From the IMG/VR virus record IMGVR_UViG_3300049491_000530, positions 1 through 30,614 of that record: a stretch of DNA of 30,614 nt; one strand, given 5' to 3'. Below, piece by piece: positions 147 to 30,614 of the stretch. Below the pieces are notes generated by a model. It did no database searches. It saw only the letters and a program-made list of their open reading frames with translations, and was not told the DNA's origin. The stretch's first letter is position 1, and every line of letters starts with the position of its first letter. The position numbers and the translations under genes were made by a program. This DNA is from a virus.

Positions 147-1151
147 CTACTTCTTCTTTCGTGGACGCTTCACGCTCGGTGTCCGTGGCGGCTTGGGCGC
201 TTTGATGATTGGCGCTACCCTGTCCCTGGACTTGGCAAGCACTTCCTTCTGTGCGTTGAGCCGCGCCTGTGCTTCGCGTCGTTGGGCTTCACTCTCTGCG
301 CGTGCCCGATTTCGTTCCTTATCCCGTGAAGCTTGTATCCGTGCCTGCTCTCGCTCGTAGTCCGATACCACCCTGCTTACGCTGATCTTCGAGCGACGTT
401 CTTGTTCACTGTCGCGCTGCACCTTCGGTGCCTTCTTGGAATCAAATGCCTTATCGCGCTTCTGTCGCGCAATGCGTTCATCGTTCGCGCTATGAGCACG
501 CTTCAGTTCTGGGCCAAGCTCGGATGTATCCTTTGGTCGGCCACCCTTCAGACGTAATCCCTCGCGATGCCGCCGCTTGGCTGTTGCACTAAACCTTGGT
601 TCCCATTTGGGTGGAATCTCTGGCGATTCGGTCGGGGCATTCGCCTTCGCGATATCAGCTGCCCACCGTTTTGCGGCATCCGCCCATGAATCCAGATCGT
701 CACCTTTGACGATTCGGTCTTCATCAAAATCCTGCATCTGGGTACGGAAGGTCTCCGCTGCCAGCTTGGGAAGACGGCTTAATGCGCCCAGGAATGCGGG
801 CTTGAGCCATGGATAGCGATAGAAATTGTTCTTCTTGGTGCGCCAGCCGACTTCCAGGTAGGTGCCATACTCACTATCAGTGAAAATGGTGCCTTCGGTT
901 AAGAATCCTTGCAACCAGATCGCATCTTGCACCGAGCGGGCCAGGTCGCCGGTATCCTCATGATCGGTAAGATGCGGATGCGGCCCTGGGCCTTCGCCCT
1001 TCGCGACATTCTTCTGAGCATCTTCCTTGGCTTTGCGAAGCACCGAACGCATCGCCGTCTCGGTCGCGCCTGGTGCTTTTTTCGCAAACCCCTTCGCACG
1101 ACTATTGATTTGTAGTGTGCCACTGAATCGCAGCAAGCGCTTGTCGGCCAC
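147..1151 (-). CDS. HK97 gp10-like neck/tail-completion protein with long basic C-terminal extension
   Basis: The product is 334 residues. The first ~150 residues look like the HK97 gp10 family: an N-terminal helical part (RAKGFAKKAPGATETAMRSV), a central TGDLARS segment, and SEYGTYLEVGWRTKK followed by YPWLKPAF, the usual 'Y..y.E.G....p.pfl.pA' pattern. Such proteins act at the head-tail interface. Residues ~165-334 are a highly charged, Lys/Arg-rich tail with many EREQARIQASR-type stretches, probably a long helix or disordered region not typical of the ~120-150-residue family. The start is GTG at 1151, with AAGGTG a short distance upstream, one base after the TAG of the preceding gene. The gp10 match is by pattern only. 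Confidence 0.72.
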   Translation of the reverse strand: MADKRLLRFSGTLQINSRAKGFAKKAPGATETAMRSVLRKAKEDAQKNVAKGEGPGPHPHLTDHEDTGDLARSVQDAIWLQGFLTEGTIFTDSEYGTYLEVGWRTKKNNFYRYPWLKPAFLGALSRLPKLAAETFRTQMQDFDEDRIVKGDDLDSWADAAKRWAADIAKANAPTESPEIPPKWEPRFSATAKRRHREGLRLKGGRPKDTSELGPELKRAHSANDERIARQKRDKAFDSKKAPKVQRDSEQERRSKISVSRVVSDYEREQARIQASRDKERNRARAESEAQRREAQARLNAQKEVLAKSRDRVAPIIKAPKPPRTPSVKRPRKKK

Positions 1152-1152
1152 G

Positions 1153-1557
1153 CTAGTTCACCTTGAGGAGACGCAGCTGAAAATGATGCTGTTCGCCTGC
1201 CATGAGTTTGATATTCTGAATGTCGAATGGCCCGCTATCCACCACCTCAAGGTCGATAGTACGGATATTTACCACCCGGTAGATAGTCGCATTCTTCGGG
1301 ATTTTTAGATCGACGGGGATATAATCATAGGGCACATAGCAGATAAAGTCCGACGTGACCTCCCCCTCCCGCTGATTGCTCTCGACTTCCTCACTACTGA
1401 GGGTTCGTACCCGCGTACGTACATCGCTAAACGTCTCGGCCACCGTGTCACGACTGGTCGTGTTATGGCCGTAGCTGCTTGATGAAACGGTGCCCTTTTG
1501 CATGCGCTCGAAGTCCACATAATGTCGCATCAAGTCGAGGAATACGGGATCGGTCAT
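1153..1557 (-). CDS. Putative head-closure / head-tail joining protein
   Basis: The product is 134 residues with no membrane segment and a mixed beta-rich look: PKNATIYRVVNIRTIDLE is followed by a C-terminal strand-rich part ending HHFQLRLLKVN. It sits between the gp6-like connector (ATGA overlap at 1554-1557) and the gp10-like gene. In HK97- and SPP1-type phages this slot holds the head-closure (stopper) protein. The opening MTDPVFLDLMRHYVDFERM is a helical leader. The function rests mainly on gene order; no catalytic motif is visible. Confidence 0.6.
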   Translation of the reverse strand: MTDPVFLDLMRHYVDFERMQKGTVSSSSYGHNTTSRDTVAETFSDVRTRVRTLSSEEVESNQREGEVTSDFICYVPYDYIPVDLKIPKNATIYRVVNIRTIDLEVVDSGPFDIQNIKLMAGEQHHFQLRLLKVN

Positions 1558-2189
1558 GGCGCAACATCCTTATTCGTCGTGGCAAATCGGCGCTTCACGT
1601 AGTAATCCAGATAATTCCCCGCCTCATTCGGTGGCCCATTCCGCAGGACATCCAACACGCTTGAATAACTCACACTATAATCACCAATTGTCGTAGACTT
1701 CACCCCAGCAAGCTTGCCGACCTTGAGGAGATAGGTGATCCAAGCAGTGCAACCGTCCACAATATTCTCGGGCGTTTCTCCATCCTCAAGAAAGCCCCAT
1801 GATCCCACCACCGAGATGCACTGCTGGTTCGTGGTTGGTGCCCAGCGAAAGGTTGCGCTCCCTGAGCGATTAATCTCAAGCCATTGGTATGGAGGGCCGA
1901 TCATCGGGTATTTGAAAATGGTCGATACATCTAAAAGTGTCCCATCTCCATTCGTAATCGACGTAAGTGATTGGAGATCGCCCCGCAACCAGAGTTTCCA
2001 TTCGCCTTGGTAGTCGTACACCTCCGTCGCGGTCTTCGGATAGAAGAAGCGATGGCAATACGTGTCGATATGGCGGCTGACATGGGGGATGAGTCGGGCT
2101 ATCACCGAATCACGACTCGTGTCGTCAATCGGAATTTCTGCCGCAATCTTCGCATCGGCTAATGTGCAATAGGAACTCGATGTACTCAT
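1554..2189 (-). CDS. Head-tail connector (adaptor) protein, gp6-like
   Basis: The product is 211 residues. The N-terminal half reads as the gp6/gp15-like adaptor fold: CTLADAKIAAEIP, then DSVIARLIPHVSRHIDTYCHRFF, matching the usual 'l..aK..L.i....D..l..li..as..id.y..R.F' helices. It continues with a beta-rich part (GDLQSLTSITNGDG) and PENIVDGCTAWITYLLK. Adaptors of this kind form a ring below the portal for tail attachment. The ATG at 2189 is preceded by GGAC, and the gene follows the glycosyltransferase after a 9-base gap. It is the first recognisable joining gene after the modification cassette. Confidence 0.72.
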   Translation of the reverse strand: MSTSSSYCTLADAKIAAEIPIDDTSRDSVIARLIPHVSRHIDTYCHRFFYPKTATEVYDYQGEWKLWLRGDLQSLTSITNGDGTLLDVSTIFKYPMIGPPYQWLEINRSGSATFRWAPTTNQQCISVVGSWGFLEDGETPENIVDGCTAWITYLLKVGKLAGVKSTTIGDYSVSYSSVLDVLRNGPPNEAGNYLDYYVKRRFATTNKDVAP

Positions 2190-2198
2190 GATGTGTCC

Positions 2199-2921
2199 TT
2201 ACGGATGAAAGACTTGGAGTTGCGGGTCAAGCCAGAGTTTATAGCCCTTGGCGTGAATGTCACGCCCAAAGCCAACGATGCCTTCATCAGCCGGATTGAA
2301 ACGGCAATTCCTGGCTACCTCGCCCTTCATGGCGATGCACGAACCTGCGCTATCAATCTCGGTCAGTTTCAGACCAACCCCTGGATGATACGGGCGTGGG
2401 CCTTGGAAGCGCTGTCCGTCCTTCCTGTGGCCCCAGGTGTCGTAGAATTGCCCCGTCTGCTGATGGATACAGAGTGGGGCGATTGCGTCGATATCGGACG
2501 AAGCGTCCAGGTGCCCGAGTAGGTATTGCATGGTATCCGCATCCCAGAACAGATCACTCTCCACATAGAGCAGATAGGTATCTTCCAGTTCAACAGCCTC
2601 AAGGATCTTGTCGCAAACAAACGAGATATTCCGCCAGCGCTGTGTGTTCTCAATTGATCCAAAGACTGGGCCACCATGTTCGGCTTTGAAAATGGTGAGC
2701 TTGCTGTCCTTGGCGATATATGTGATCCGGCCCATGACATAGGCGAGACGGGCATTCAGTTTCTCCCATGTGTCATCAGACGAGTCACCTTCCGCAGCAA
2801 TCAGGTGAATGTCATAGCCACGACCAACGAGCCAGCCGGTCAGATCGGCTATTTGTCCAGCATAGTGGTCAATGTAACTGGACGAATTTCGGAACATGGA
2901 AGCAATTGCGATTCGTGGCAT
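2199..2921 (-). CDS. Glycosyltransferase, GT-A-like
   Basis: The product is 240 residues. The N-terminal strand and loop MPRIAIASMFRNSSSYIDHY resembles the start of GT-A glycosyltransferases. A mid-protein TYLLYVESDLFWDADTMQYL has an acidic ESD in the place of the metal-binding DxD motif, followed by an acceptor-side C-terminal part with DEGIVGFGRDIHAKGY. Such enzymes move a sugar from a nucleotide-sugar to a protein, lipid, glycan or modified base. It lies in a tight row with a methyltransferase and a sugar nucleotidyltransferase (gaps 17 and -1 bases), which suggests one pathway. The acceptor cannot be read from sequence; virion protein, host surface or phage DNA are all open. The start ATG has AGGATGG upstream. 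Confidence 0.75.
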   Translation of the reverse strand: MPRIAIASMFRNSSSYIDHYAGQIADLTGWLVGRGYDIHLIAAEGDSSDDTWEKLNARLAYVMGRITYIAKDSKLTIFKAEHGGPVFGSIENTQRWRNISFVCDKILEAVELEDTYLLYVESDLFWDADTMQYLLGHLDASSDIDAIAPLCIHQQTGQFYDTWGHRKDGQRFQGPRPYHPGVGLKLTEIDSAGSCIAMKGEVARNCRFNPADEGIVGFGRDIHAKGYKLWLDPQLQVFHP

Positions 2922-2938
2922 CAGTGTGCCATCCTTTC

Positions 2939-3733
2939 TTACTCTGCTGCGTCTCGAAATACCTTACTGATCTCATCATTGAACTTGTCCCACCACTTGG
3001 GGAACTTGTTCGCGCCCTTCACTTGGTAGACGCTTTGCATGAACATGGCAAGGTGATTTCGCGTATTAAATCCCGTAAAATACCACTGCTGCACATCCTT
3101 GTCGGTCTTCAGTGAGGTGAGGCACGTCGCAGCTTCCTGGACATCAGGATGATTAACCCCCTGAAGAACGATGATGGTCTCATGTCCTGGTTCAGCATGC
3201 GTCATCGGAAGCACGCCCTCAAGATCCTTGAGCGGTTGCCCGTCCTGCTTCCAGCCATCAATGAAGACCAGATCGAACGCACCTTCAGGTGGCAGGGATG
3301 CGAGAATCGCTGGCGATTCACCAGAGAGTAGTCGTACCTTCGCATCCACACTACAGGCTTCCATGTTGAGAAGGAATTGTACGTCGAGATCGCCATTCCT
3401 CCCATCCGACATACCACGAGCGGTCTCCTGGAAGCTGTCCACGCAGATGAGGTCGCCACCTTCGGGGAGCGCAAGTGCCATATGGGCAGCTGTCCAGCCC
3501 ATGGCCGTACCAATCTCAAGGACATGATTCGGCTTTGCGTGCCTCACAATCAGATTGAGGATGGTCGCTTCTTTCCAGGTCGCACAGGTTGGCCCAGTGA
3601 AAGAAAGGTCGCGGTACGCTGGCTCGATCTCGTTTGACACCGCGATTAACCCAGGGATGCGGTTGAGTACGTGGGCGGAAACCGACCCAGGAGTCCGCAT
3701 CAGTGCAATATTCCGACCGTAGGTGTAGTTCAT
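2939..3733 (-). CDS. Class I SAM-dependent methyltransferase
   Basis: The product is 264 residues. A Rossmann-type SAM site is clear: HVLEIGTAMGWTAAHMALAL (motif I, E-x-G-x-x-x-G), GGDLICVDSF (motif II, acidic residue at the strand end), and FDLVFIDGWKQDG (motif IV-like). This layout matches the Methyltransf_24 / O-methyltransferase type seen beside sugar-modifying enzymes. The N-terminal ~50 residues are an extra helical part. The gene starts at 3733 in a TAATG junction with the nucleotidyltransferase, with AAGGA upstream, so the two are translationally coupled. The substrate is unknown; a sugar or small metabolite is more likely than direct DNA methylation because no NPPY-type motif is seen. 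Confidence 0.8.
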   Translation of the reverse strand: MNYTYGRNIALMRTPGSVSAHVLNRIPGLIAVSNEIEPAYRDLSFTGPTCATWKEATILNLIVRHAKPNHVLEIGTAMGWTAAHMALALPEGGDLICVDSFQETARGMSDGRNGDLDVQFLLNMEACSVDAKVRLLSGESPAILASLPPEGAFDLVFIDGWKQDGQPLKDLEGVLPMTHAEPGHETIIVLQGVNHPDVQEAATCLTSLKTDKDVQQWYFTGFNTRNHLAMFMQSVYQVKGANKFPKWWDKFNDEISKVFRDAAE

Positions 3734-4350
3734 TATGCAAGTCCTTGAATATGGCGCTTATAGGAAGCCCAGTCGCCAAAGTCCTGGTAGTCCTGGATAG
3801 CGAATGTGTGGCACCCGAATGCGTAGAGCGCCGCATTGAACGCTTCGTCGTAATCGGCGTAGTGTCGCTCCCGCCAAAGATCGATCACATCTTTGTTCCA
3901 GTAGGCGCATCCCCAGGCTTGTTGGGGTGTTTGCACGATCCCCCCCGGTTTTGTAATGATAACACCATTCACGAGGATACTAAACCGGGATGGTTCATTC
4001 GTAACAAAGGTGCCAAGTGCGAATGGCGTATCAGGAACAGGTTGGTCAATCGTAAAGAGTGTATCAGGAAGGACAAGGATACTTTCTTCCCAGAAGTGAA
4101 AGGACTCCCGAATAGCTCCCCATAGTCCACGGCTACTACTCACCAATAATGAGTCGTTGTTTGCCAGGAACCGTTCATGGAGTGCAGCCTTCTCGGAACT
4201 CGTTACAATGACGCAGCGACGGGCACCCATAGCCCGCGCACGATCCATAGCCGAACTCAACAGGAATTGATCGTTACCAACAGGCAACATATCCTTATGG
4301 ATACCCATAAAGCGCGTTGCTTTTCCTCCTGCTGGTATGACTGCAATCAT
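3733..4350 (-). CDS. Sugar-phosphate nucleotidyltransferase-like protein
   Basis: The product is 205 residues. It opens MIAVIPAGGKATRF and continues MGIHKDMLPVG, a variant of the 'iiLAgG.GtRl.p.t...pK.llpv' nucleotide-binding loop of RmlA/GlmU-like enzymes, which join a sugar-1-phosphate to an NTP to make a nucleotide sugar. The later strand SILVLPDTLFTIDQP carries the acidic metal-binding position. At 205 residues it is shorter than RmlA (~290), so it holds the catalytic core without the C-terminal oligomerisation region. It overlaps the preceding gene by ATGA and the methyltransferase by TAATG. It could supply the donor for the glycosyltransferase two genes downstream. The activated sugar and the nucleotide are not readable. 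Confidence 0.75.
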   Translation of the reverse strand: MIAVIPAGGKATRFMGIHKDMLPVGNDQFLLSSAMDRARAMGARRCVIVTSSEKAALHERFLANNDSLLVSSSRGLWGAIRESFHFWEESILVLPDTLFTIDQPVPDTPFALGTFVTNEPSRFSILVNGVIITKPGGIVQTPQQAWGCAYWNKDVIDLWRERHYADYDEAFNAALYAFGCHTFAIQDYQDFGDWASYKRHIQGLA

Positions 4351-4922: not shown

Positions 4923-4931
4923 ATTCTAGCA
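4923..4931 (-). promoter_or_regulatory. Extended -10 promoter for the HTH gene
   Basis: On the minus strand the sequence is TGCTAGAAT, an extended -10 element (TGn plus TAGAAT). The same nonamer occurs at 6947 and 20299. No good -35 is visible. The predicted transcription start falls on or within one base of the ATG at 4915. Confidence 0.65.
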
Positions 4932-6900: not shown

Positions 6901-6946
6901 TGTGTGCCAGATTTCTTTTATTCTTGCCTTCGTCCCTCTCCTTTAT

Positions 6947-6955
6947 ATTCTAGCA
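6947..6955 (-). promoter_or_regulatory. Extended -10 promoter of the coiled-coil/membrane cassette
   Basis: The minus strand reads TGCTAGAAT, identical to the nonamers at 4923 and 20299. Transcription would start near 6940, giving a leader of about 40 bases to the TTG at 6900. A probable terminator for the upstream operon lies just before it. Confidence 0.6.
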
Positions 6956-6963
6956 GAACGCCA

Positions 6964-6989
6964 AAGCCCCTGGTTTTTGCCAAGGGCTT
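6964..6989 (-). terminator. Inverted repeat, possible terminator of the fibre operon
   Basis: AAGCCC(C)TGG and CCA(A)GGGCTT form a 9-pair stem with one mismatch and a 6-base loop. It lies between the stop at 7019 and the next promoter at 6947. On the minus strand it is followed only by TTTGGCGTTCT, so the U-tract is weak and termination may be partial. Confidence 0.42.
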
Positions 6990-7018
6990 GTAAAGCGATT
7001 TCCTACGTGGAGTAGGGA

Positions 7019-10600: not shown

Positions 10601-10765
10601 GGCACCAACAAAGATGACCTCTTCGGTTGAGAGGCCAGGATCGATGACAATATAGAAATTAGCAGTAGGATAGCCAGTTGCGAGTGTCAGCGTGACGGAC
10701 GTGGCAGAATCCGTCATGGATGTCGCAAGCGCCGACTCGGCGGCTATGTCAGACCATGTTGTCAT
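7658..10765 (-). CDS. Large tail fibre / receptor-binding-type protein
   Basis: The product is 1035 residues, by far the largest here, and very rich in Ala, Ser, Thr and Gly. The N-terminal ~100 residues look like an attachment domain (ATSVTLTLATGYPTANFYIV). Residues ~110-150 carry AHLAASDPHPQYQTQTEGDA, a joint motif common in tail fibres and collar proteins. A short repeat follows (NTRAAADTTLS, then NEAIARAAADSLL), and later TLSGYGILTDADSRYA and THTGG-like fibre segments, with a strand-rich middle rich in YG motifs (YGLYIGN, YGVYVYT). The C-terminus shows no obvious self-cleaving chaperone. It starts in an ATGA overlap with the Ig-like gene. The receptor is unknown. Confidence 0.85.
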   Translation of the reverse strand: MTTWSDIAAESALATSMTDSATSVTLTLATGYPTANFYIVIDPGLSTEEVIFVGARSGVALSGMIRAAGIGSTAFAHAASATVVHAITGSDLLTLSGLADVAMTAHLAASDPHPQYQTQTEGDARYYQLSLDLATQVELDAETAARIAGDSTNATAISSEANTRAAADTTLSTNISNEAIARAAADSLLTPLSRTLTINGTALDLSANRSWTVGDVLTGGSYANPSWITSLAWSKITGTPTTLSGYGILTDADSRYAQLAAANTFTLGPNLFKAGADGNVALAARRHSSGSTANIQEWQNQAGGAVAYVSSSGGLFATSTSIFGNDPNPNSGLPAYIPGAVYSDVFKVGHTFTDLTGIDFPEGIFSSVSIDHSANAPSVYAYSGDFGIVIPSGNTKSLGGMAGINGIAQHKGTGAVSGIYGLNYSGILTGAAVVGGVYGAYLASYNEGGTLTDLYGTYVDAETYGGATTNQYGVYVYTSASGVTNNYGLYIGNVSGGSSINRAIHTAGGEVRHLTGAAAVVGMSIQAAASQSADLLRLLASDGTTKLSYFDSAGDIFLPTKTANTIFAGPTSGGAARPTWRTLVAADIPSLSSVYQPLDSDLTTIAGLTATTNNFIVSVASAWASRTPAQVKTTLSLDAVENTALSTWAGSTNITTLGTIATGTWSGTLIAASKGGTGVANGASATLTLPNAATTITTGGTLALGGFTLTVPATGTTALLGTANAFTALNTITRTDSGTNTVLNVLTLAHDSSGSIAANFGTGLTFQGQSTTTADRDMASINAIWTTATDASRAAGLIINVASNTALAEAIRFGTVSGIRGISAIGGNTSANFTATNLNGVNASASFTIRNQASGSGTSVCISTSLSLATGQYFAIIQGLSVETARFVSEAATASTAAVVDNLILRRNPTSGTPAAGTGHQLHFVGKSDTTADRDMYTESAEWIVATDASRKARAKLSVFDTAVREVIRMDADGARANIGFLGASDFASGSGVIAILNATTAPSGTPSGGGVLYVESGALKFKGSSGTITVLGVA

Positions 10766-11058
10766 GCACTATCTCTCGATTGTACATTGATCGACCCCTG
10801 ATCGACCCCTTCGGCAGCGCCCGTCCCAATCCAGCTGTAACGCCAAATTCCAGCGGCATTCAAAATAGTCGCAGAAAGCACCTTGTAGTATGCTCCTGTC
10901 CCTGTTTTCGTCAGGGCGGTGGCGGCATAGGTGTAGGTGGTCACGACCTTGGATGGACTCTTCAGCTCAAGGCTGATAGTCGTCGGATCGGTTGGAACAC
11001 CGGCAACACTGAATACCGTCGAAAGCTTGACGGCATCCCCAAGATCGCAGGTGTACAT
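10762..11058 (-). CDS. Small Ig-like virion protein
   Basis: The product is 98 residues from ATG 11058. A longer in-frame extension to 11244 exists, but it reads through the 30-base repeat as a Cys/Tyr-rich string and is contradicted by the good gene in the other frame. The protein has an Ig-like pattern: LGDAVKLSTVFSVAGVPTDP, ISLELKSPSKVVTTYTY, GTGAYYKVL, GIWRYSWIGTGAAEGVDQGS. This 'DPTTv.l....P.g..tt' to 'GvYy....aG.W.Y.w.g.g' pattern is common in small phage proteins encoded beside fibres. It follows the decapeptide-repeat gene by 2 bases and overlaps the fibre start by 4. Confidence 0.75.
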   Translation of the reverse strand: MYTCDLGDAVKLSTVFSVAGVPTDPTTISLELKSPSKVVTTYTYAATALTKTGTGAYYKVLSATILNAAGIWRYSWIGTGAAEGVDQGSINVQSRDSA

Positions 11059-11060
11059 TG

Positions 11061-11330
11061 CTATTGACACGTTTCCACCGAACTTACTATCTGAGTGACA
11101 TAGGCAGCAAGGCTGGTATTGGTCGTAACCTGAGCAGCAAGGCTGGTATTGGTCGTAACCTGAGCAGCAAGGCTGGTATTGGTCGTAACCTGAGCAGCAA
11201 GGCTGGTATTGGTTACGACCAAGGCGATCAGACTCGTTAGGCATGCCCGATAGGATCGGTTCGATCCGCCAGGAGAGAGTCGATACGGCAAGCTCGATGG
11301 TATCCGGCTATGGCCGGTGGTTGAAATCAT
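11061..11330 (-). CDS. Short fibre-like protein with decapeptide repeats
   Basis: The product is 89 residues. From residue ~40 it consists of the decapeptide TNTSLAAQVT repeated nearly four times, encoded by an exact 30-base tandem repeat, and ends AAYVTQIVSS. Repeats of this size and make-up are seen in rod-like parts of fibre proteins. The ATG at 11330 has GGAGAG upstream with a 5-base spacer and lies 19 bases after the stop of the preceding gene; the stop lies 2 bases before the next start, so this frame, not the overlapping Cys-rich one, fits the operon. The ribosome site lies inside a 13-base inverted repeat. The N-terminal ~38 residues have no recognisable domain. Confidence 0.66.
   Translation of the reverse strand: MISTTGHSRIPSSLPYRLSPGGSNRSYRACLTSLIALVVTNTSLAAQVTTNTSLAAQVTTNTSLAAQVTTNTSLAAYVTQIVSSVETCQ
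11104..11213. repeat. 30-base tandem repeat, about 3.7 copies
   Basis: Exact units at 11104-11133, 11134-11163 and 11164-11193 are followed by a partial copy at 11194-11213. Each begins GCAGCAAGGCTGG. Because the unit is 30 bases, copy-number change would keep the reading frame and alter only the length of the decapeptide rod. Confidence 0.95.
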
Positions 11331-11341
11331 CGACTCTCTCC
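11272..11341 (-). promoter_or_regulatory. Long inverted repeat covering a ribosome-binding site
   Basis: GGAGAGAGTCGAT and its perfect complement form a 13-pair stem (11272-11284 with 11329-11341). On the minus-strand message the upstream arm holds the GGAGAG ribosome site and the first bases of the ATG at 11330. Inside the loop a second hairpin (CCGGC/GCCGG) can form. Folding would hide the start of the decapeptide-repeat gene. Confidence 0.6.
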
Positions 11342-11349
11342 GTTACAGC

Positions 11350-12252: not shown

Positions 12253-12276
12253 CGATAACCTCTTTCATAGATCGTC

Positions 12277-12306
12277 CCTCTGGGGCCACCACAGCAGCCC
12301 CAGAGG
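12277..12306 (-). promoter_or_regulatory. Intergenic hairpin without U-tract
   Basis: CCTCTGGGGC and GCCCCAGAGG make a perfect 10-pair GC-rich stem with a 10-base loop, between two structural genes. Neither strand has a following T-run, so it may act in message processing or stability instead of intrinsic termination. Confidence 0.6.
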
Positions 12307-12327
12307 CATAGGAAGCGTCGAAAAGGA

Positions 12328-12789: not shown

Positions 12790-12811
12790 GGGATATGCTC
12801 CTTATGAGCTA

Positions 12812-12843
12812 GGGATGTGAGAACGCGCTGGCCCTCACATCCC
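12812..12843 (-). promoter_or_regulatory. Intergenic hairpin downstream of the capsid gene
   Basis: GGGATGTGAG and CTCACATCCC form a perfect 10-pair stem with a 12-base loop in the 170-base gap after the major capsid gene. There is no T-run after it on either strand. The rest of the gap (12844-12959) shows no convincing gene. Confidence 0.6.
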
Positions 12844-12959
12844 GGAAATCATTCAAAGGAACTGCGATTGTTCCTGATGCGTATCTCATATCTGCTGAAG
12901 AGAACTGGGAACTCTTTACAGATTTTATCGATATTCCGCACCAGGAAGCCCAATAAACA

Positions 12960-16648: not shown

Positions 16649-17269
16649 CTATTTATCCTTTCGTCCACTCGTTCCGTATAGTTTCTTGCGAGTAAGCCAT
16701 GCCTTCTTATTGGCAGATGAACGATCTATCACCGAAGTCGAACCTTTTGTCCCACCTGTCTGTGCTTGCGACTGGCGGTGATCTCCAAGCCACCCACGGA
16801 CAACATCTCCCGCGATTTTGGCCTGTGCATTTGCGTCATCAATCGTAGCCGCATCCCCTGACACGATGCCTGGAACGTCCGTAATGATATTTGCGACCGA
16901 GTCAATCACAGTGGCTACCTGACCAACGAGACTTTGCTGTCCTTCACGTACTGCGACTGCCTGATTGTAAGCTTGTCGATAATATCGGAGTTGTGTGTCA
17001 TCCATCGCCGGGAATGATTCCTTCACCTCTTCGGGGGTTCGCATTGTGCCATCGGGACGACGATAAAAATCAACTGGAAGTACCGTTTGCGGGGGCGGCT
17101 TATACGGATCGTCTTTCTTCTTTCCTTTAATTGTTCCGCTTAACGCCACCGCAGATGCCACCGAACGTGGCGTAACCCGATTTGACGGGTGTTGAATCAC
17201 CTCGCGGATAACCTGCGGCGTTCGTGTTGCGGGTTTCTTTGGATTTTTCTTTCCAACAATCCCTGGCAT
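16649..17269 (-). CDS. Unknown basic phage protein
   Basis: The product is 206 residues. The N-terminus (MPGIVGKKNPKKPATRTPQ) and C-terminus (KKAWLTRKKLYGTSGRKDK) are strongly basic. The middle has PVDFYRRPDGTMRTPEEVKE, a helical DTQLRYYRQAYNQAVAVREG segment and a small-residue part (SLVGQVATVIDSVANIITDV). The ATG at 17269 lies 13 bases after a strong terminator-like hairpin with five Ts, with AGGA in between, so its expression may depend on read-through or a weak promoter at 17367. It is in the head-gene row between a zinc-ribbon gene and the 49-residue basic gene. Function unknown. Confidence 0.7.
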   Translation of the reverse strand: MPGIVGKKNPKKPATRTPQVIREVIQHPSNRVTPRSVASAVALSGTIKGKKKDDPYKPPPQTVLPVDFYRRPDGTMRTPEEVKESFPAMDDTQLRYYRQAYNQAVAVREGQQSLVGQVATVIDSVANIITDVPGIVSGDAATIDDANAQAKIAGDVVRGWLGDHRQSQAQTGGTKGSTSVIDRSSANKKAWLTRKKLYGTSGRKDK

Positions 17270-18266: not shown

Positions 18267-19610
18267 TTAGACGCTTAATTCTTCGAGTGTGGCTGATACC
18301 GTATCGAAAAGAATGCCAATCTTGATGGAATCGGCCCCAACAAGCTGTGAACGAACGACTCCGAGGAGTGATTCGGGAAGCGCTTGGGTCTCAAACGTAT
18401 ATTCGCCAGGATTCTTACCCTTTTCGGCCTCCTTCATGGCGATTTTCTTCCATCGCTTGAGTTCTTCACGCTGCCCAATACGTAACGCCGCGACATTCCA
18501 GCTGCGAGACGCGTTTTGCTGCACAAAATGCGCGCCTGTCTGCGTCGTGGACGTATCCGCAGGCGTTCCTGTCGCGCTCATCTGGTTTGATCCGGTATTT
18601 AAGCTACTTTGATTGGCCGCATCCTCACTTGCGGCTGGTGATCCACCCGATTCTGGCGCATTCGGGTCGCGCTCACTCCCATCCGTAAGCATGAGCGGGG
18701 CGATTTCCTCGACGGTCTCACCTGCGGCATTCACTTGCCCAGGGAGTAGCCCCGTCTTACCTGCCAATGCCGAGGTATTCGATGAAAGCATGGGAATCAG
18801 GCGCACAGGAATACGTAACATCAGGTCAACCATCGAGTCATCAAGCGGCGTGAAGATCGGGTCAAGGTCAGAAGCCAACCGAATGGTATTGATTTCATTC
18901 ATGATGCCAATCAGGTCGAGCGCTGGCATGTTGCGATTCTTGCGGTTCTCATTAATCGAGAGATCGTTCGAGTACGCGGTATATTCTTGAACGGCGAGTG
19001 AACGATCCTGGGGAATGATTGATGGAGCCGAGATGCGATAGCCTGGGCCGTAATACGGTGACAGGACACTATCGAAGGCAGATGCAATCAAGTCGAGCAG
19101 TGGTTGCGTCGTGTTGCGCGCAAAGGTAATCTCAGTTGCAAGGCGGCTGTCTCCACTCGTACCACCTGAAGTCAATCCTTCAGGAATGCCAAGTGCCTGG
19201 TTGATTTCTTCGCGGTTGAACTTACGCGCATCCACGATTTGCATCTCGTGCAGCGTTTGGGTAATCGTCTGCACACTGATGTCACCTGCGCGGGTGATGG
19301 CCGACCGACGCCCTGCTCCAAACTGCTCACGAATCTGTTCCTTGATGACCTCAAAATCGTTCTCATTGGTCTCTTGTGGCACCGAGATGATTGCGGTCGG
19401 TATTGCATTGTCACGACCAAAGAAACCCGAGAGGTACTTTGTCTGGAACTTATCGAGTCGAATGGCATCCATCATTGCACTAAGCGGGGACAGCCCAACC
19501 CAGTAGTCGAACGGATTCGCCATACGAACGTGAATGATATTCTCGCCTGGAAGTGTGGTTATCAGGCGTGACCGCATTCGCTGGAAGCGGCCACAGTTCT
19601 TCGGGCACAC
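18267..19610 (-). CDS. Portal protein, C-terminal portion (out of frame with its N-terminus)
   Basis: This frame holds most of the portal. From about residue 20 it reads LPGENIIHVRMANPFDYWVG, LSPLSAMMDAIRLDKFQTKY and FFGRDNAIPTAIISVP, the typical HK97/phage portal core, then FNREEINQALGIPEGLTSGG and LTPYY-like crown helices. Residues ~300-360 are a Ser/Thr-rich linker (TGSNQMSATGTPADTSTTQT) and the C-terminus is a helical domain. The portal is the ring at one head vertex for DNA entry and tail joining. The nominal start (codon at 19610) only marks where the frame opens; true translation would come from the N-terminal frame that overlaps it at 19480-19610. Confidence 0.8.
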   Translation of the reverse strand: MCPKNCGRFQRMRSRLITTLPGENIIHVRMANPFDYWVGLSPLSAMMDAIRLDKFQTKYLSGFFGRDNAIPTAIISVPQETNENDFEVIKEQIREQFGAGRRSAITRAGDISVQTITQTLHEMQIVDARKFNREEINQALGIPEGLTSGGTSGDSRLATEITFARNTTQPLLDLIASAFDSVLSPYYGPGYRISAPSIIPQDRSLAVQEYTAYSNDLSINENRKNRNMPALDLIGIMNEINTIRLASDLDPIFTPLDDSMVDLMLRIPVRLIPMLSSNTSALAGKTGLLPGQVNAAGETVEEIAPLMLTDGSERDPNAPESGGSPAASEDAANQSSLNTGSNQMSATGTPADTSTTQTGAHFVQQNASRSWNVAALRIGQREELKRWKKIAMKEAEKGKNPGEYTFETQALPESLLGVVRSQLVGADSIKIGILFDTVSATLEELSV

Positions 19611-20061
19611 CCTCGCCTGGGGCAGCGGTACTCACAAAGATATAGGCATTCCCAAGGAGGTTGAGCCAACTGACCGTATAGCGCACAATAAACTCCCACG
19701 TCATCAGGGAGTTTGGTCGGTCAAGCAGAGTGGCAAAGGCATGGTTCGGTGCGAGTACCAATTCGTCGCGGACACGCCGTTTGATGATCGGACGCGCATC
19801 CATAGCCGCGATGCGGTCGCCAATCAACTTGTTGCCCGAATAGAACCAGGCCGAGGTGCATGCCGTTTTAATGGCGAGAGCGGTGTCAAGCGTTTCCGCC
19901 GAGTTATACTTGCCCGACTCGGACATCTTGTCCAGCAATGTGTAAGCCATGCGCCGCTGATCCGCCTTAGACGCAGGAGGTGGCGGAAATGCGTAGCGAT
20001 AGGCTTCGGCAAAGTACCCAAGGGCACTTCCGAGCCTATTCGGTGGCTGTATTTGCTGCAT
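19480..20061 (-). CDS. Portal protein, N-terminal portion (frameshifted)
   Basis: From ATG 20061 (AAGG six bases upstream; a GTG at 20082 is also in frame) this frame encodes the portal N-terminal region: ETLDTALAIKTACTSAWFYS, PIIKRRVRDELVLAPNHAFA, LLDRPNSLMTWEFIVRYTVS and WLNLLGNAYIFVST, ending near EELWPLPANAVTPD. After that the frame runs into noise (NHTSRREYHS) and stops at 19480, while the portal continues in the next frame. Together the parts would span ~600 codons, normal for a large portal. The usual ~15-20 residues between the 'LP.N.V.PD' and 'LPGENIIHVR' pieces seem missing, so a small deletion is more likely than one lost base. Confidence 0.78.
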   Translation of the reverse strand: MQQIQPPNRLGSALGYFAEAYRYAFPPPPASKADQRRMAYTLLDKMSESGKYNSAETLDTALAIKTACTSAWFYSGNKLIGDRIAAMDARPIIKRRVRDELVLAPNHAFATLLDRPNSLMTWEFIVRYTVSWLNLLGNAYIFVSTAAPGEGVPEELWPLPANAVTPDNHTSRREYHSRSYGESVRLLGWAVPA

Positions 20062-20081
20062 GTCGTACCTTGTTTGCTGCA

Positions 20082-20264
20082 CTAGTCTTTTCGAATCTGC
20101 GTCCCAGGCTTATGCGAGTTCGTCGGAGCGCCCTTGGCTTTGGTCGCCGCACCACCCTTGTACGCACTGCTGCGGTTTTCGGAGAGCCGACCGTCTTTTG
20201 GCGTACCAGCCTTGGGTTTCGTGGATGTGGATTTCTTATTTCCGCTGTTCTGCTTTGGTGCCAT
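20082..20264 (-). CDS. Small basic, Ser/Lys-rich protein
   Basis: The product is 60 residues, MAPKQNSGNKKSTSTKPKAG at the start and SHKPGTQIRKD at the end, highly basic and low in hydrophobic residues, so probably disordered. The AGGAGA ribosome site and the extended -10 promoter 35 bases upstream of the ATG support it as real. It lies between the large terminase and portal, and its stop overlaps a possible GTG start of the portal. It is similar in character to the 49-residue basic protein at 16498. A DNA- or RNA-binding role is a guess from charge. Confidence 0.7.
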   Translation of the reverse strand: MAPKQNSGNKKSTSTKPKAGTPKDGRLSENRSSAYKGGAATKAKGAPTNSHKPGTQIRKD

Positions 20265-20327: not shown

Positions 20328-21905
20328 CTAGATTGTGGCAAACAGGGGCTTGTAGGGCATCACATCGGGAGCAAGTGAGAGCACAACAGCATCCCCAACG
20401 TCAGGAGATCGTCCGAGGCGCGCTTTTGTCTCTTCTTTTTCCTCAATTTTGACCTTCCCCGAAGAAGTCATGCCCCATTTCGGGGCAGTCAGGTCACGCG
20501 TGAGGTTTTCGTCAGGAGGAAGGGCAATCGTTGCGTTATCTGCCTCCAAAAGCTCACGCACATGCCACCAAAGGTAGTCGCGGAGACGATTGAAACTCAT
20601 CTCCCCCGACTTGTCGCGTGACTTTGTGCCATTCGCGGTGTTGATAGGGATGAGCGGCACTTTCTTTTCCTTGGGCTTGCGGAGTTCACCATTTGACCAG
20701 AGTTCACGGCCACGGTCGAATACACCCGCCCCGAGACCGTTCACGTCGATTTTGGCAAGCGCGGTGTTGTGCTGCATATGACTGACCATCTTGCCAGTGG
20801 TCTGCATCGTGTCTTGCTGGTCTGTGCGGTCTACCTTGCGAATGTGGTCGCCATATCGAAAAGCCCAACCCGTTTTGTCTACGCCAAAGCGCGCAGGGTC
20901 AACGCCGATATGAGAGAGATCGCCCCAGATCATGGCGTCAGCTTTTCCAGGATCGGTGCCATCCTCGATCAGTTTACTCACTCGATCATTTAAGACATGC
21001 CACCGTTCAATTGCGGCTTCAACAAGGTGGAGCGGGATAAGCACATCGCCAGATTCGTCCGCAAACTGACCAAGCGCACGACGTTTATACATCGCACTCT
21101 CGATACCCCACTCACGGGCACGAGTCTCAAGCCACTCTTGAGTCGTACGACCGGCTGCAATGACTTCATCAATCGTTGCAGCAACCACCGACCAGGCACG
21201 GTACTTATCTCGGTCGGTTTGGATTTCAAAAAACCGACCACTACTATCCCCAGGAGTTGAAAGCGCTAGGGCATACGCATTTGGCGTACCGAGCGCGCCT
21301 TCAGCGGCATCCCAAATGGCAGGAACAATCGCCTTTGCTTCGTCAAATACATAGAGAATAGCTGCGGAGTGCGCGCCTTCAATCTTCGCTTCATCATTCG
21401 ATGAAATCGCAAACGCAAAGCGGTTCTCGGTATCGCCAATCTCGATACGGAGCTTCATCAATTCCTTGCCTGGGCGCACGCGAATGCCCACCCGCCACCA
21501 GTCGGCTTTGAGTGCCCACTTGTGGATTTCCGGCCAGAGAAAGTCTTTGAGTTGTCGCCAAGCAGAGGCAGTTGTGGGGATTTTACATTCTTCCCATACC
21601 CCGATGAACCAGAGGATTGCGGCAGCTGCCGTCGTGGTTTTACCTGCGGAGTGGAGAGAACGAAAACAGACTCGGTGTGTCTCGACCAGGAGGCGTAACA
21701 CCTTTTCCTGGTATGGAGCCAAGGTCATATGCAGCACTTCACGGGCGAATGCTACGGCATCATACTTGTAGCGTTGGACAGCTTTTTCGGGCGACCAGAT
21801 TAACGAATCGATGTTCGCACGTTCTTCAGGAGTCATAAACTCCCAAAGCTCGAACATCGATTCGTTTTCGGCTAGTGCCTGAGCTTGCCCTTTGTCGATT
21901 CCCAC
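20328..21905 (-). CDS. terL: Terminase large subunit
   Basis: The product is 525 residues. The ATPase half has a Walker A variant RSLHSAGKTTTAAAAILWFI and Walker B ILYVFDEAKAI. The C-terminal nuclease half shows the three acidic sites: GVDPARFGVDKTGWAF, AKIDVNGLGAGVFDRGRELW and GRSPDVGDAVVLSL, with SFNRLRDYLWWHVRELL between. It pumps DNA into the prohead and cuts it. The Walker A loop ends SAGKTT with Ser/His where Gly is more common, as in several phage terminases. The start is GTG 21905 with AGG upstream. It is separated from the small subunit by three genes, which is less usual than adjacent terminase genes. Confidence 0.93.
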   Translation of the reverse strand: MGIDKGQAQALAENESMFELWEFMTPEERANIDSLIWSPEKAVQRYKYDAVAFAREVLHMTLAPYQEKVLRLLVETHRVCFRSLHSAGKTTTAAAAILWFIGVWEECKIPTTASAWRQLKDFLWPEIHKWALKADWWRVGIRVRPGKELMKLRIEIGDTENRFAFAISSNDEAKIEGAHSAAILYVFDEAKAIVPAIWDAAEGALGTPNAYALALSTPGDSSGRFFEIQTDRDKYRAWSVVAATIDEVIAAGRTTQEWLETRAREWGIESAMYKRRALGQFADESGDVLIPLHLVEAAIERWHVLNDRVSKLIEDGTDPGKADAMIWGDLSHIGVDPARFGVDKTGWAFRYGDHIRKVDRTDQQDTMQTTGKMVSHMQHNTALAKIDVNGLGAGVFDRGRELWSNGELRKPKEKKVPLIPINTANGTKSRDKSGEMSFNRLRDYLWWHVRELLEADNATIALPPDENLTRDLTAPKWGMTSSGKVKIEEKEETKARLGRSPDVGDAVVLSLAPDVMPYKPLFATI

Positions 21906-22880: not shown

Positions 22881-23546
22881 CTATTCATAGCCAAGGTCAG
22901 TTCCCCAGTTCGAACCACGATGGAATTCCACATCCGCACCATTGATCGAGACACGCCCCTGTACACCCCAAAGAATCTTCGCTTTCTGGAACGTTTCAAG
23001 CGTTATTGAACTGTTCTGCTCATCAAGTTTGGCACGCACCGCATCAAGCGCAGCCTCAGACGGTTCATCGTACACACGCTGCTCGGCCTGCATGGCCGTA
23101 AGAGGCATTCGCCCCAGGAAGGACTCATTGATCGATTGCGTGACCTTCTTTCTCATCTCGCGCTGCATCACCGCCCGAAGATCAAGGTCGGCAATCACTA
23201 CATCATCAAATTCTTGGGGCATGATATACCGTGACGATAGTGTATATCCTGCTGATCGATACATCGGATTTCCCAATGAGACATGCATATTCGGTGGAAC
23301 GAATCCGCCTATCCCCTGCCCCGACACACGGCATGAATCATTGAATTCTTTACATGCCTTCTCAAACACCCCTGGCCCGAAGTAGTGCCCATGACCAGCG
23401 AAGGAGTGCAACCCGGAGACGGAGATATTGACCATGAGATCGCCAAACGCTTTCGTCAGAGGCGATACATCCGTCGTCAGTCCCATTGCCAACGTGCCAC
23501 TTGAAATAACTTCATTCGCGAGATTATAGGTTTCTTGGTCGATCAT
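22881..23546 (-). CDS. Unknown protein in the packaging operon
   Basis: The frame opens at 23795, but ATG 23546 has GGGAGG at the right spacing and the sequence before it is antisense to the terminator and small terminase end. The 221-residue product begins MIDQETYNLANEVISSGTLA and holds SGLHSFAGHGHYFGPGVFEK, NPMYRSAGYTLSSRYIMPQE and VMQREMRKKVTQSINES. The last 70 residues include a helical part and a strand-rich end (ILWGVQGRVSINGADVEFHR). No motif I recognise. It ends with TAG and the next open frame continues in register. Confidence 0.68.
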   Translation of the reverse strand: MIDQETYNLANEVISSGTLAMGLTTDVSPLTKAFGDLMVNISVSGLHSFAGHGHYFGPGVFEKACKEFNDSCRVSGQGIGGFVPPNMHVSLGNPMYRSAGYTLSSRYIMPQEFDDVVIADLDLRAVMQREMRKKVTQSINESFLGRMPLTAMQAEQRVYDEPSEAALDAVRAKLDEQNSSITLETFQKAKILWGVQGRVSINGADVEFHRGSNWGTDLGYE

Positions 23547-23573
23547 ACCAGCCTCCCTCGTAGACTCCGCCTC

Positions 23574-23602
23574 TTGACAATTAAACGTACTCGATGTATA
23601 GT
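23574..23602 (+). promoter_or_regulatory. Consensus sigma-70-type promoter on the plus strand
   Basis: TTGACA (23574-23579), a 17-base spacer and TATAGT (23597-23602) match the bacterial housekeeping consensus at 11 of 12 positions. It is the only promoter in the window with a full -35. It points away from the gene starting at 23546, into the gap before the small terminase. A 6-base inverted repeat, GTCTGC/GCAGAC (23603-23608, 23622-23627), lies across the start site and could be an operator. Confidence 0.75.
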
Positions 23603-23608
23603 GTCTGC

Positions 23609-23678
23609 ATTCGTTGTTGTGGCAGACAATGGACAGAAGAAGCGAGGAGAGCGTGGATTCGGCACCCACGCTCTTTTT
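23609..23678 (+). ncRNA. Predicted small RNA of about 70 bases
   Basis: The transcript would run from about 23609 to the U-tract of an intrinsic terminator at 23678. Its first ~40 bases are mostly unpaired and include GAAGAAGCGAGGAGAGC, which is purine-rich, and the 3' end is a hairpin with five Us, the typical shape of a small regulatory RNA. It contains no convincing reading frame. It is antisense to the leader between the small terminase gene and the next gene of the packaging operon, so it could pair with that message; a packaging-related role is also possible because of its place. Existence is inferred from promoter plus terminator only. Confidence 0.55.
23649..23678 (+). terminator. Intrinsic terminator on the plus strand
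   Basis: GAGCGTGG pairs with CCACGCTC (8 pairs, 9-base loop), followed at once by TTTTT. It works only rightwards, since the minus strand has no T-run after the stem. It ends 1 base before the stop of the oppositely read small terminase gene. Confidence 0.75.
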
Positions 23679-23679
23679 G

Positions 23680-24228
23680 TTACTCCTCAATGGTGAATGT
23701 CGCCTCTTGCACATCCTCTTTCGGGGATTCCAGTAGATGCACTTCGGTTTCGGCGGCTGTTTTCCGCTCTCTCGCCCGCTGGTAAATTTCCTCAATCAGC
23801 TGCTTGCGTTCCTCGTCGGTAAGTTGATTAAGGTTCTTCTCACCCGTGATATCAGTAGCCGTGATCTTCGTCGGAGCATAGGCACCTGTCAACTTAATCA
23901 ATTGGTCTTGGAGTTTAATAAATCGGTCGTAAGCAAAGAGATCCGCATCCTCAAGCTTTTTCTGGAACTTCTTATTTGACAGGAGCTTCTCGGCACGTTG
24001 AATATGAATCTCTCGCCATTCGAGGGTCGCGAGGTTTGTTTCCTTGATTGAGCGCTTGACTGCTGCCTGCACGTCGTTATAGATGGTCGTCCGAGAGCAT
24101 TTCTGGTCTGGATGTTCAGTATTCCACCAGGCGTGTAGTTCGTCCGTGCTCAGTCCCTCGACTTTCTTGCCCATGACAAGTCGCTGGCGCTCAAGGATGC
24201 GTTCTTTATCGCCTACGCCGAGTGGCAT
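23680..24228 (-). CDS. terS: Terminase small subunit-like protein
   Basis: The product is 182 residues. The N-terminal part looks like a DNA-binding helix-turn-helix (ERILERQRLVMGKKVEGLST, then SRTTIYNDVQAAVKRSIKET, with the Thr-Ile-Tyr-Asp recognition helix), followed by a long helical oligomerisation region (EIHIQRAEKLLSNKKFQKKL, FIKLQDQLIKLTGAYAPTKI) and an acidic Glu-rich tail (NQLTDEERKQLIEEIYQR onward). The family recognises the packaging site and forms a ring around DNA. The large subunit is two kb further on, after three genes. The ATG lies inside the end of the preceding gene with GGC-rich spacing, so it is probably coupled. Assignment is by pattern and place. Confidence 0.8.
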   Translation of the reverse strand: MPLGVGDKERILERQRLVMGKKVEGLSTDELHAWWNTEHPDQKCSRTTIYNDVQAAVKRSIKETNLATLEWREIHIQRAEKLLSNKKFQKKLEDADLFAYDRFIKLQDQLIKLTGAYAPTKITATDITGEKNLNQLTDEERKQLIEEIYQRARERKTAAETEVHLLESPKEDVQEATFTIEE

Positions 24229-24467
24229 ACCTTCGGCCTTTCAATTCCTTGGAGTTCGAGGTCGCCCTTCCGTACAATCAGTACCTTGCGGCCATTTTCA
24301 CCGAGATGCTGCTGAAGTTGATCGCTCATGATACCGAAGTCCACATTCCCTATTTCTTCGGGAACCCAGAAAACAAGATCGACATCACGCGGAATAACCT
24401 GAATAGATTCAAGATCGAATGACTCCTCAAATCCGCGATCATCCGTTCCTACGAGTTGCCATTTCAT
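24213..24467 (-). CDS. Unknown 84-residue protein
   Basis: I start at ATG 24467 (MKWQLVGTDD) because GGAG lies six bases upstream; ATG 24479 is an alternative. The product has alternating strand and helix pieces (ESIQVIPRDVDLVFWVPEEI; NGRKVLIVRKGDLELQ), a small alpha/beta fold. It overlaps both neighbours: 29 bases with the gene before and 16 with the small terminase. No motif recognised. Confidence 0.62.
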   Translation of the reverse strand: MKWQLVGTDDRGFEESFDLESIQVIPRDVDLVFWVPEEIGNVDFGIMSDQLQQHLGENGRKVLIVRKGDLELQGIERPKVCHSA

Positions 24468-24618
24468 CGGGTGCTCCATCAAGATGTCCAGGTGGGGGAA
24501 GTATCATATGCCGACCGCTGGCGAAGTGTGCCTTAATCTCAGCCTTCACGCGTTCGAACTCTTCGTCGGTCATATCAACTGGCGTTGGTAGGATCTCCAT
24601 CGGCCAACGCTCGACCAT
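24439..24618 (-). CDS. Unknown 59-residue protein
   Basis: The open frame reaches 24840 but its upstream half is a shadow of the gene at 24575. The real part looks to begin near ATG 24618 (MVERWPMEILPTPVD), with possible later starts at 24600 and 24573 (MTDEEFERVKAEIKAHFASG). The helical EEFERVKAEIKAHF segment and a Pro-rich end (MILPPPGHLDGAPDE) are visible. The latter start would follow the upstream TGA by one base. No clear ribosome site decides between them. Confidence 0.5.
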   Translation of the reverse strand: MVERWPMEILPTPVDMTDEEFERVKAEIKAHFASGRHMILPPPGHLDGAPDEMATRRNG

Positions 24619-25168
24619 TGCGGTGTCGATTGCGCTTGGCGGCGATTGTAGCAGATCGTGCAGCAGCTTTGATTGCTCGACGCTCTTGGGCCAGCTGCTT
24701 GTCGCGTTCACTTTGTACAAGCCGTTCTTCGACGCTTGGCAGCAAAGCCGAGCGTCGATCACGTTCTGCTTGAGTTTGTCGCGTGTACTCCCCCATGAAC
24801 TTGCGAAATTCCTGAAGCGTATTCTTAGTTGCTGCCACATAATCCTTCTTCACTTTCTTGATTTTCTTCTTCTCATCCTCGGGTGGATTGTCCTCGATCT
24901 CTAGCATGGGTTTACCATCCACGATGAATCGACGCCCCCAGCGCTGGACGTACACACGCGTGCGTGGCTGGCCCTTGCTGTTTTCACCAGGCGCAAGGAT
25001 ATAGGGCAACTCCTCTCCTGGGATGAACTTGCGCGAGAACTCTTTCTGTCCAGCATTCTTCGGATCGAGCCAGAACAGACGATCTACCTCAAGGACTGCC
25101 TCGACTACAGGTGAAAACGTCTCGGGAAGGTCGGCACGTTTTAAGCGTGGGATCAGTGTATATGGCAT
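24575..25168 (-). CDS. Unknown phage protein with basic helical C-terminus
   Basis: The product is 197 residues from ATG 25168, with AGGAA upstream and a TGATG overlap with the small gene before it. The first ~100 residues read as a compact domain with PYTLIPRLKRADLPETFSPV, VLEVDRLFWLDPKNAGQKEF and TRVYVQRWGRRFIVDGKPML. The second half is basic and helical (DEKKKIKKVKKDYVAATKNT, then LAQERRAIKAAARSATIAAK). That tail suggests nucleic-acid contact. It lies at the head of the packaging operon. No family recognised. Confidence 0.66.
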   Translation of the reverse strand: MPYTLIPRLKRADLPETFSPVVEAVLEVDRLFWLDPKNAGQKEFSRKFIPGEELPYILAPGENSKGQPRTRVYVQRWGRRFIVDGKPMLEIEDNPPEDEKKKIKKVKKDYVAATKNTLQEFRKFMGEYTRQTQAERDRRSALLPSVEERLVQSERDKQLAQERRAIKAAARSATIAAKRNRHRNGRALADGDPTNAS

Positions 25169-25341
25169 CAGGAATTTCCTACTTTCTGTGCAAAGATAAC
25201 GGCGATCATGGTACGTGCCCACTCTGCTGCAATCGCTTCTGGGATGCCGCCACTCCTCAAAGCTTTGAAGAACGCTATAGCGATATCCGCAGCTAATTGG
25301 ATGCCGGTATCATTCGGTGTCGAGGGAGGAGGTGTCGCCAT
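25168..25341 (-). CDS. Unknown 57-residue protein
   Basis: This short frame reads MATPPPSTPNDTGIQLAADI, then AIAFFKALRSGGIPEAIAAE and WARTMIAVIFAQKVGNS. The 'GIP..lA..w....i' helix pair is typical of small phage proteins with that style. ATG 25341 lies inside the end of the preceding gene and the TGA overlaps the next ATG, so it fills what would otherwise be a 140-base gap in a packed operon. GGA lies upstream at a somewhat long distance. It is too short for most gene callers. Confidence 0.6.
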   Translation of the reverse strand: MATPPPSTPNDTGIQLAADIAIAFFKALRSGGIPEAIAAEWARTMIAVIFAQKVGNS

Positions 25342-25756
25342 CTTTTAGTTCCAATCGAGCTGGCTGCGGCTGATCCATGGCCCAGAGGATCTTCGACATC
25401 CCATCTACGAATCGTTCCATTTCGTTGGTATATGCCTGATAGGCCATGTTGCGGTCAATCTCATTCGATACATGACCGAGCGACGACCAGATCGCCATGT
25501 CGGAGAAAGCATGGGAGATGTGTAATACCTCGTGGATAATCGTCTCTTCCGACTCTTTGTTTTGTTCGATGTCGGCACGGAAGGTAAGCTTGGCTGACCG
25601 GATGTTCGATACGGTCTCGCATACGGCAAGCGCATTCGTGTCATTGTTCGGAACAAGCGCAAGGTAAACCCTGATGCGCCACTGCTGAAGATAGAGTCGT
25701 TCCTGCCACTTCTCCACATACTGTTGTAGCCATGCCGGTGTATCGAGTACACTCAT
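25310..25756 (-). CDS. HExxH putative zinc metallopeptidase-like protein
   Basis: The product is 148 residues. The helix EETIIHEVLHISHAF holds HEVLH, the zinc-binding HExxH motif, and the protein opens with WLQQYVEKWQERLYLQQWRI, a leader typical of SprT- or ImmA-like small peptidases. A following EIDRNMAYQAYTNEMERFVD segment has candidate third-ligand Glu/Asp residues. Such proteins cleave peptides or act as repressor-targeting proteases, but at this size it could also be an inactive relative. It is the first gene of the leftward operon, with a promoter at 25793 and AAAGGA before ATG 25756. Confidence 0.65.
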   Translation of the reverse strand: MSVLDTPAWLQQYVEKWQERLYLQQWRIRVYLALVPNNDTNALAVCETVSNIRSAKLTFRADIEQNKESEETIIHEVLHISHAFSDMAIWSSLGHVSNEIDRNMAYQAYTNEMERFVDGMSKILWAMDQPQPARLELKDGDTSSLDTE

Positions 25757-25792: not shown

Positions 25793-25801
25793 ATTTTAGC
25801 A
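25793..25801 (-). promoter_or_regulatory. Extended -10 promoter of the leftward packaging operon
   Basis: The minus strand reads TGCTAAAAT. Transcription would begin near 25786, giving a leader of about 30 bases to ATG 25756. It is paired back-to-back with the plus-strand element at 25816. Confidence 0.65.
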
Positions 25802-26229: not shown

Positions 26230-26238
26230 TGCTATAAT
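26230..26238 (+). promoter_or_regulatory. Extended -10 promoter of the small-gene operon
   Basis: TGCTATAAT on the plus strand, the best match to the canonical extended -10 in the window, six bases after the stop of the gene before. The start near 26245 gives a leader of ~37 bases with GGAGA before TTG 26281. Confidence 0.7.
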
Positions 26239-26280: not shown

Positions 26281-26670
26281 TTGGATACGCATACACCAAT
26301 AAAAGCAAAGCGGAAGCCGGGACGACCAAAAACGCCCGACGCACTCAGTCCACACTACACGCGTCGGTCAATCTCCCTGCCTGCTCAGGCATTTAAGAAT
26401 CTTGACAAACTCGCCAAGCGACTCAATGCGCGGGCCAAGAGTGGCCCGAACTATGGTAAGGCGTCGTGGCGCAACTGGCTGCGTACCTTCGCCTTGGAAG
26501 ATGTCCCTGAAATTCTTGCGTTTCTCGATTCACGCCAGATAGAATTCGAGCAATGGAAATCGTTGAAACTTACCGTTAAGGTGGAATATGTGGAACCTGA
26601 TAACCGAACAACCGAAGAAGGAGCACACACCAATGGGCATGTCACAGGAGTATGCCTTCCCCCAGTTTGA
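26281..26670 (+). CDS. Ribbon-helix-helix-like DNA-binding protein with AT-hook
   Basis: The product is 129 residues from TTG 26281 (GGAGA seven bases upstream). An AT-hook-like KAKRKPGRPKTPD at the start is followed by RRSISLPAQAFKNLDKLAKR and GKASWRNWLRTFAL, which fit a ribbon-helix-helix repressor: one strand, then two helices. The remaining ~50 residues are a mixed tail. It is the first gene after the best rightward promoter and could be the main early regulator. The AT-hook pairs with the one in the 109-residue protein at 4347. Assignment is by pattern. Confidence 0.68.
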   Translation: MDTHTPIKAKRKPGRPKTPDALSPHYTRRSISLPAQAFKNLDKLAKRLNARAKSGPNYGKASWRNWLRTFALEDVPEILAFLDSRQIEFEQWKSLKLTVKVEYVEPDNRTTEEGAHTNGHVTGVCLPPV

Positions 26671-30569: not shown

Positions 30570-30614
30570 TTGACATAACGAGAGCGATCACGGAAAATTG
30601 GATTCATAGGAATT

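Follow-up and report, generated by a model that had tools for sequence, protein, structure and literature searches.

A predicted promoter-terminator unit opposite the packaging genes of an uncultivated tailed phage, tentatively read as an antisense small-RNA gene

Small antisense RNAs have been described in several phages. In P22, the antisense RNA sar is located in the gap between arc and ant (PMC7968456), while the lambda OOP RNA causes its target to be cut by RNase III (PMC12197685, which also reviews further phage antisense RNAs). In PAK_P3, early antisense RNAs lie mainly over the structural region and are accompanied by intergenic small RNAs of ~100 nucleotides (PMC4933390). Here we describe a candidate of this kind in the IMG/VR virus record IMGVR_UViG_3300049491_000530, a stretch of 30,614 bases from an uncultivated tailed phage (hereafter the window). 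The gap of 133 bases between a gene resembling the small terminase gene terS and the next leftward gene holds a rightward promoter, a predicted small RNA and an intrinsic terminator (Table 1). We tentatively read these as a self-contained small-RNA gene, the ~71-nucleotide product of which would act in cis as an antisense RNA, opposite the part of the leftward packaging message that lies between these two genes.

The candidate resembles P22 sar in being a short RNA with its own promoter, placed in an intercistronic gap and directed against a phage operon (PMC7968456; PMC13397905). However, it stops short of the next gene's ribosome-binding site, its neighbours are packaging genes rather than an antirepressor gene, and it has no Rfam match. 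PAK_P3 (sRNA1/sRNA2) offers parallels both in its antisense RNAs over structural genes and in its intergenic small RNAs (PMC4933390), although those RNAs were observed by RNA sequencing and the one in the window is predicted only; the PAK_P3 antisense RNAs also lie within genes except for one, with a mean length of 176 bp for the small ones, whereas the window RNA is shorter and intergenic. OOP is likewise a small antisense phage RNA, but its target is cII in the lysis-lysogeny region. Taken by its predicted features (own promoter and terminator, and a short RNA opposite a phage message), the unit fits the cis-antisense type, while coverage of the target's ribosome-binding site, as in sar, is lacking. 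The predicted RNA would probably be a small antisense regulator such as other phages are known to carry, and the proposal as a whole is plausible as a credible new case of an established type.

The promoter and terminator were evaluated separately and as a pair. The initial annotation had called the promoter the only consensus promoter present, which holds for the -35/-10 type: TTGACA-N17-TATAGT (23574-23602, plus strand) was the sole sigma-70 match of at least 11/12 in the window, and the runner-up (TTGACA-17-GAAAAT at 30570) was the only other one reaching 10/12. The claim does not extend to extended -10 sites, of which the phage has many. Motifs such as TGCTAGAAT and TGCTATAAT recur in gaps (minus strand at 4931, 6955, 20307 and 25801; plus strand at 26230 and 29871) and are probably its ordinary promoters. 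The start of the consensus promoter lies 27 bases from the next gene's start codon. A terminator usable only rightwards, ~70 bases past the promoter, had also been described, and this was borne out. Its arms are AGAGCGTGG (23648-23656) and CCACGCTCT (23666-23674), the T run occupies 23674-23678, the minus strand past the stem lacks a T run, and 73 bases separate the end of the -10 element from the end of the stem. A terminator scan with a loop limit of 8 bases misses this stem, which our own wider scan detects; its exact sequence was not found in viral contigs.

In dinucleotide-shuffled versions of the window (1,380 shuffles), the combination of a promoter of at least 11/12 with a strong same-strand terminator 30-200 bases on had a frequency of 0.0007 per window, or 0.006 when the promoter threshold was relaxed to at least 10/12. 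The pairing thus exceeds chance, and a chance origin is less likely still because the pair falls exactly inside a gene gap. These frequencies also bear on a reading in which the stem serves chiefly as a hairpin between cistrons of the leftward message and the promoter and T run are there by chance. Strong hairpins without T runs were indeed seen by eye in other gaps of the leftward run (12253-12327, 12790-12959, 11245-11349 and 6901-7018), but the rarity of the promoter-terminator combination, together with a leftward strand that folds no better than shuffles in the gap (z = -1.0), makes this explanation very improbable.

Table 1. Coordinates of the predicted unit, neighbouring genes and comparable units (positions in the window unless a related locus is named).
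Feature	Position	Strand	Details
-35 element TTGACA	23574..23579	+	6/6 consensus match
-10 element TATAGT	23597..23602	+	5/6 consensus match; 17-base spacer from -35
Inverted repeat TGTCTGC-N13-GCAGACA	23602..23628	+	arms 23602-23608 / 23622-23628; spans predicted start site
Predicted small RNA	~23609..23679	+	~71 nucleotides; start inferred from -10 position
Intrinsic terminator	23648..23678	+	9-bp perfect GC-rich stem, 9-base loop, T5; rightward only
terS-like gene	23680..24228	-	phrog_645, E 1.8e-7; stop codon abuts 3' end of predicted RNA
Next leftward gene	22881..23546	-	221 amino acids, no family match
Large terminase gene (TerL)	20328..21905	-	downstream, same leftward run
Second promoter-RNA-terminator unit	17396-17288	-	TTGCCG-18-TAGATT with extended TGC, ~75 bases, 15-bp terminator
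Promoter-terminator units in sense directly before head-protease gene	L005 4974-5139; L047 5447-5660; L049 7068-7187		
Tandem terminators in sense directly before head-protease gene, L124/L125	L124 2100-2323		

No complete open reading frame (ORF) lies inside the predicted RNA. Every ORF crossing it starts ahead of position +1 or overruns the terminator, in agreement with the earlier remark that no gene fits between the two signals. The RNA would consist of a 5' hairpin (23610-23633), a short purine-rich linker and the terminator hairpin, and the folding of 23609-23680 (minimum free energy -30.2 kcal/mol, z = -4.3) derives mostly from the terminator. The inverted repeat across the start site, which had been proposed as an operator, is real, but an equally good repeat is present in 3.8% of random 45-mers drawn from the window, and no second copy of TGTCTGC/GCAGACA was found when looked for; the repeat is possibly an operator or a 5' hairpin, yet near chance. 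Similarly, the AGGAGAG motif is present (23645-23651) but sits towards the base of the terminator stem, where AGGAG is predicted to be paired, which argues against the suggestion that the RNA titrates ribosome sites.

A role in packaging had also been raised. The pRNA of phage phi29 is a small phage RNA tied to DNA packaging, but the only feature that the window RNA shares with it is nearness to terminase genes. The covariance models of Rfam 15, pRNA included, gave no match in the window at gathering score and only chance-level matches at E values up to 10, and the TerL-related loci likewise had no Rfam match. The packaging role accordingly found no backing beyond position.

A compact, free-standing gene of this sort might instead encode a trans-acting RNA (a "moron" RNA), the partners of which would be host or phage messages or a protein, with its place opposite the packaging message incidental. 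Intergenic phage small RNAs of ~100 nucleotides for which action in trans has been proposed or shown lend this some weight (PMC4933390; PMC12197685). However, the 5' part paired with the phage's translation-start regions no better than shuffled RNA did (best -31.9 kcal/mol; shuffled median -28.8, 5% point -34.5), and the predicted fold leaves almost no single-stranded seed. We regard a trans-acting RNA as unlikely.

Returning to the cis-antisense reading, the sequence of the predicted RNA complements the presumed message of terS and the next gene, from just past the stop codon of terS to ~60 bases short of the start codon that follows. On the minus strand of the gap, promoter scores peaked at 7 and no leftward terminator was seen, whereas an extended -10 leftward promoter, TGCTAAAAT, lies at 25801 ahead of the gene that opens the leftward run. 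Co-transcription of the terS-like gene with the next gene is therefore probable, on one message that would overlap the predicted RNA. Blocking of translation start in the manner of sar is unlikely, because the RNA begins upstream of the next gene's ribosome-binding site; cleavage by RNase III or a collision of transcription is the better fit. In such a scheme, a sigma-70-like (host-type) RNA polymerase would transcribe the small-RNA gene and the RNA would pair over its full length with the leftward message. RNase III would then cut the duplex, and/or the rightward promoter would collide with leftward polymerase. The outcome could be a lowering of the packaging genes or a loss of coupling between terS and those that follow it, for example before late expression and plausibly early.

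Collision could also be the whole purpose of the unit, with transcription itself mattering: a strong rightward promoter would oppose leftward polymerase, and the terminator would shield terS from antisense reading. In favour, leftward genes flank the promoter and terminator on both sides and no good promoter lies on the gap's minus strand, but a 70-base unit leaves little room and polymerase would be held at the promoter only briefly, so we consider this distinctly unlikely.

Several observations weigh against the antisense proposal. The 5' part of the predicted RNA by itself folds scarcely better than shuffles (z = -1.2). The next gene's ribosome-binding site (~23553-23560, start codon at 23546) lies outside the RNA. 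Protein searches of viral contigs with terS, the next gene, the capsid and the portal recovered no relatives; TerL relatives, from viral and genome contigs, were at most 46% identical and shared no synteny around the gap, and a DNA search of phages and plasmids gave no meaningful match. Set against the promoter-terminator pairing, the intergenic position and the absence of an ORF, these points leave an antisense small-RNA gene at the junction of terS and the next gene as the best reading. The initial annotation's interpretation is to that extent supported, while the further roles attached to it are unsupported. Should the RNA be made, an antisense RNA would stand between terminase genes, and DNA packaging would be controlled at the RNA level in a phage group for which no cultured member was found here, adding to the few phages with antisense RNAs that bear on late structural genes.

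We also searched for the promoter pattern TTGACA-N11-TCGATGTANANT, which matched 68 stretches. Most were ordinary promoters preceding genes, indicating a generic pattern, and only L049/L085 continued into a comparable small-RNA unit; in L122 the pattern was followed by just a short leader hairpin. Homology between the L049 RNA and the window RNA was rejected, as the RNA part could not be aligned beyond chance (p = 0.72-0.74); the global value for the whole unit (p = 0.001) stems from the promoter and the general layout.

Other promoter-terminator units occur in the window and in TerL-related loci (Table 1). The promoter of the second unit in the window overlaps the stop codon of a small zinc-ribbon-like ORF, and its strong terminator lies just before the gene at 16649-17269. 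Among 26 strong terminators in TerL-related loci (window included, with a few duplicates), seven had an upstream promoter scoring at least 10, compared with 3-5% of similarly long random segments. The second unit and those before the relatives' head-protease gene look like embedded small RNAs or attenuators; we did not treat them as relatives of the unit at 23574-23678 because their sequence and orientation differ. It is conceivable, if improbable, that the phage and part of the TerL clade embed short promoter-driven, terminated RNAs in packaging and head operons as a regular feature, for timing or for balancing terminase and capsid. Such RNAs would lie in antisense behind terS, in sense beyond the portal region and, in relatives, directly ahead of the head-protease gene.

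These units also recall an arrangement in lambda, where the strong promoter pR' is followed shortly after by the terminator tR', giving the 6S RNA. By analogy, the promoter in the window could be controlled by antitermination, its terminator being bypassed late so that a longer transcript follows. The likeness lies in a strong promoter closely followed by a terminator, and in L005, L047 and L049 a promoter, 90 to 185 bases and a terminator stand in sense before the head-protease gene, with terminators also before that gene in L124/L125 (55% relatives of L049). However, in lambda the late genes follow the unit in sense and Q opens it, whereas the genes past the window terminator (23680-25756) are on the minus strand, not co-directional late genes. 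Read-through would thus be antisense over that whole region until the rightward genes at 26281, and we judge such control very unlikely.

An RNA-based replication origin or primer was considered as well, since a short non-coding RNA opposite to its neighbours is a hallmark of the origins of the extrachromosomal mycobacterial prophages Alma and LadyBird (PMC7157519). The site in the window adjoins terminase, and no par or replication genes were recognised nearby in searches that covered part of the window's genes. This origin reading is thus the faintest of those considered.

The wider gene neighbourhood is that of a tailed phage and includes genes for an HK97-type capsid (PF05065 match) and a portal (TIGR01537 match, scoring under the family cut-off). 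Genes run mostly leftward from 25756 to the left end and mostly rightward from 26281 on. The phrog_645 family is annotated as 'Rnase E'; we assigned 23680-24228 as terS-like because the same family also matches the gene immediately preceding terL in the related locus L049. In that locus, an ORF carrying HNH-like endonuclease motifs (2076-2894) splits the TerL gene (1123-3579), which suggests a candidate intron or intein. The portal gene of the window (18267-20082, minus strand) is split over two overlapping frames (19480-20082 and 18267-19610), and the frame change in the record may be either real or a sequencing error. Tail-side genes at 2199-4350 (minus strand) include sugar- or lipid-type enzymes, namely a methyltransferase (PF13578), a nucleotidyltransferase-like protein (PF12804) and a glycosyltransferase-like protein recognised by eye. 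Between tail-fibre-like genes, 10762-11244 encodes a protein with short tandem repeats (YDQYQPCCSG repeated).
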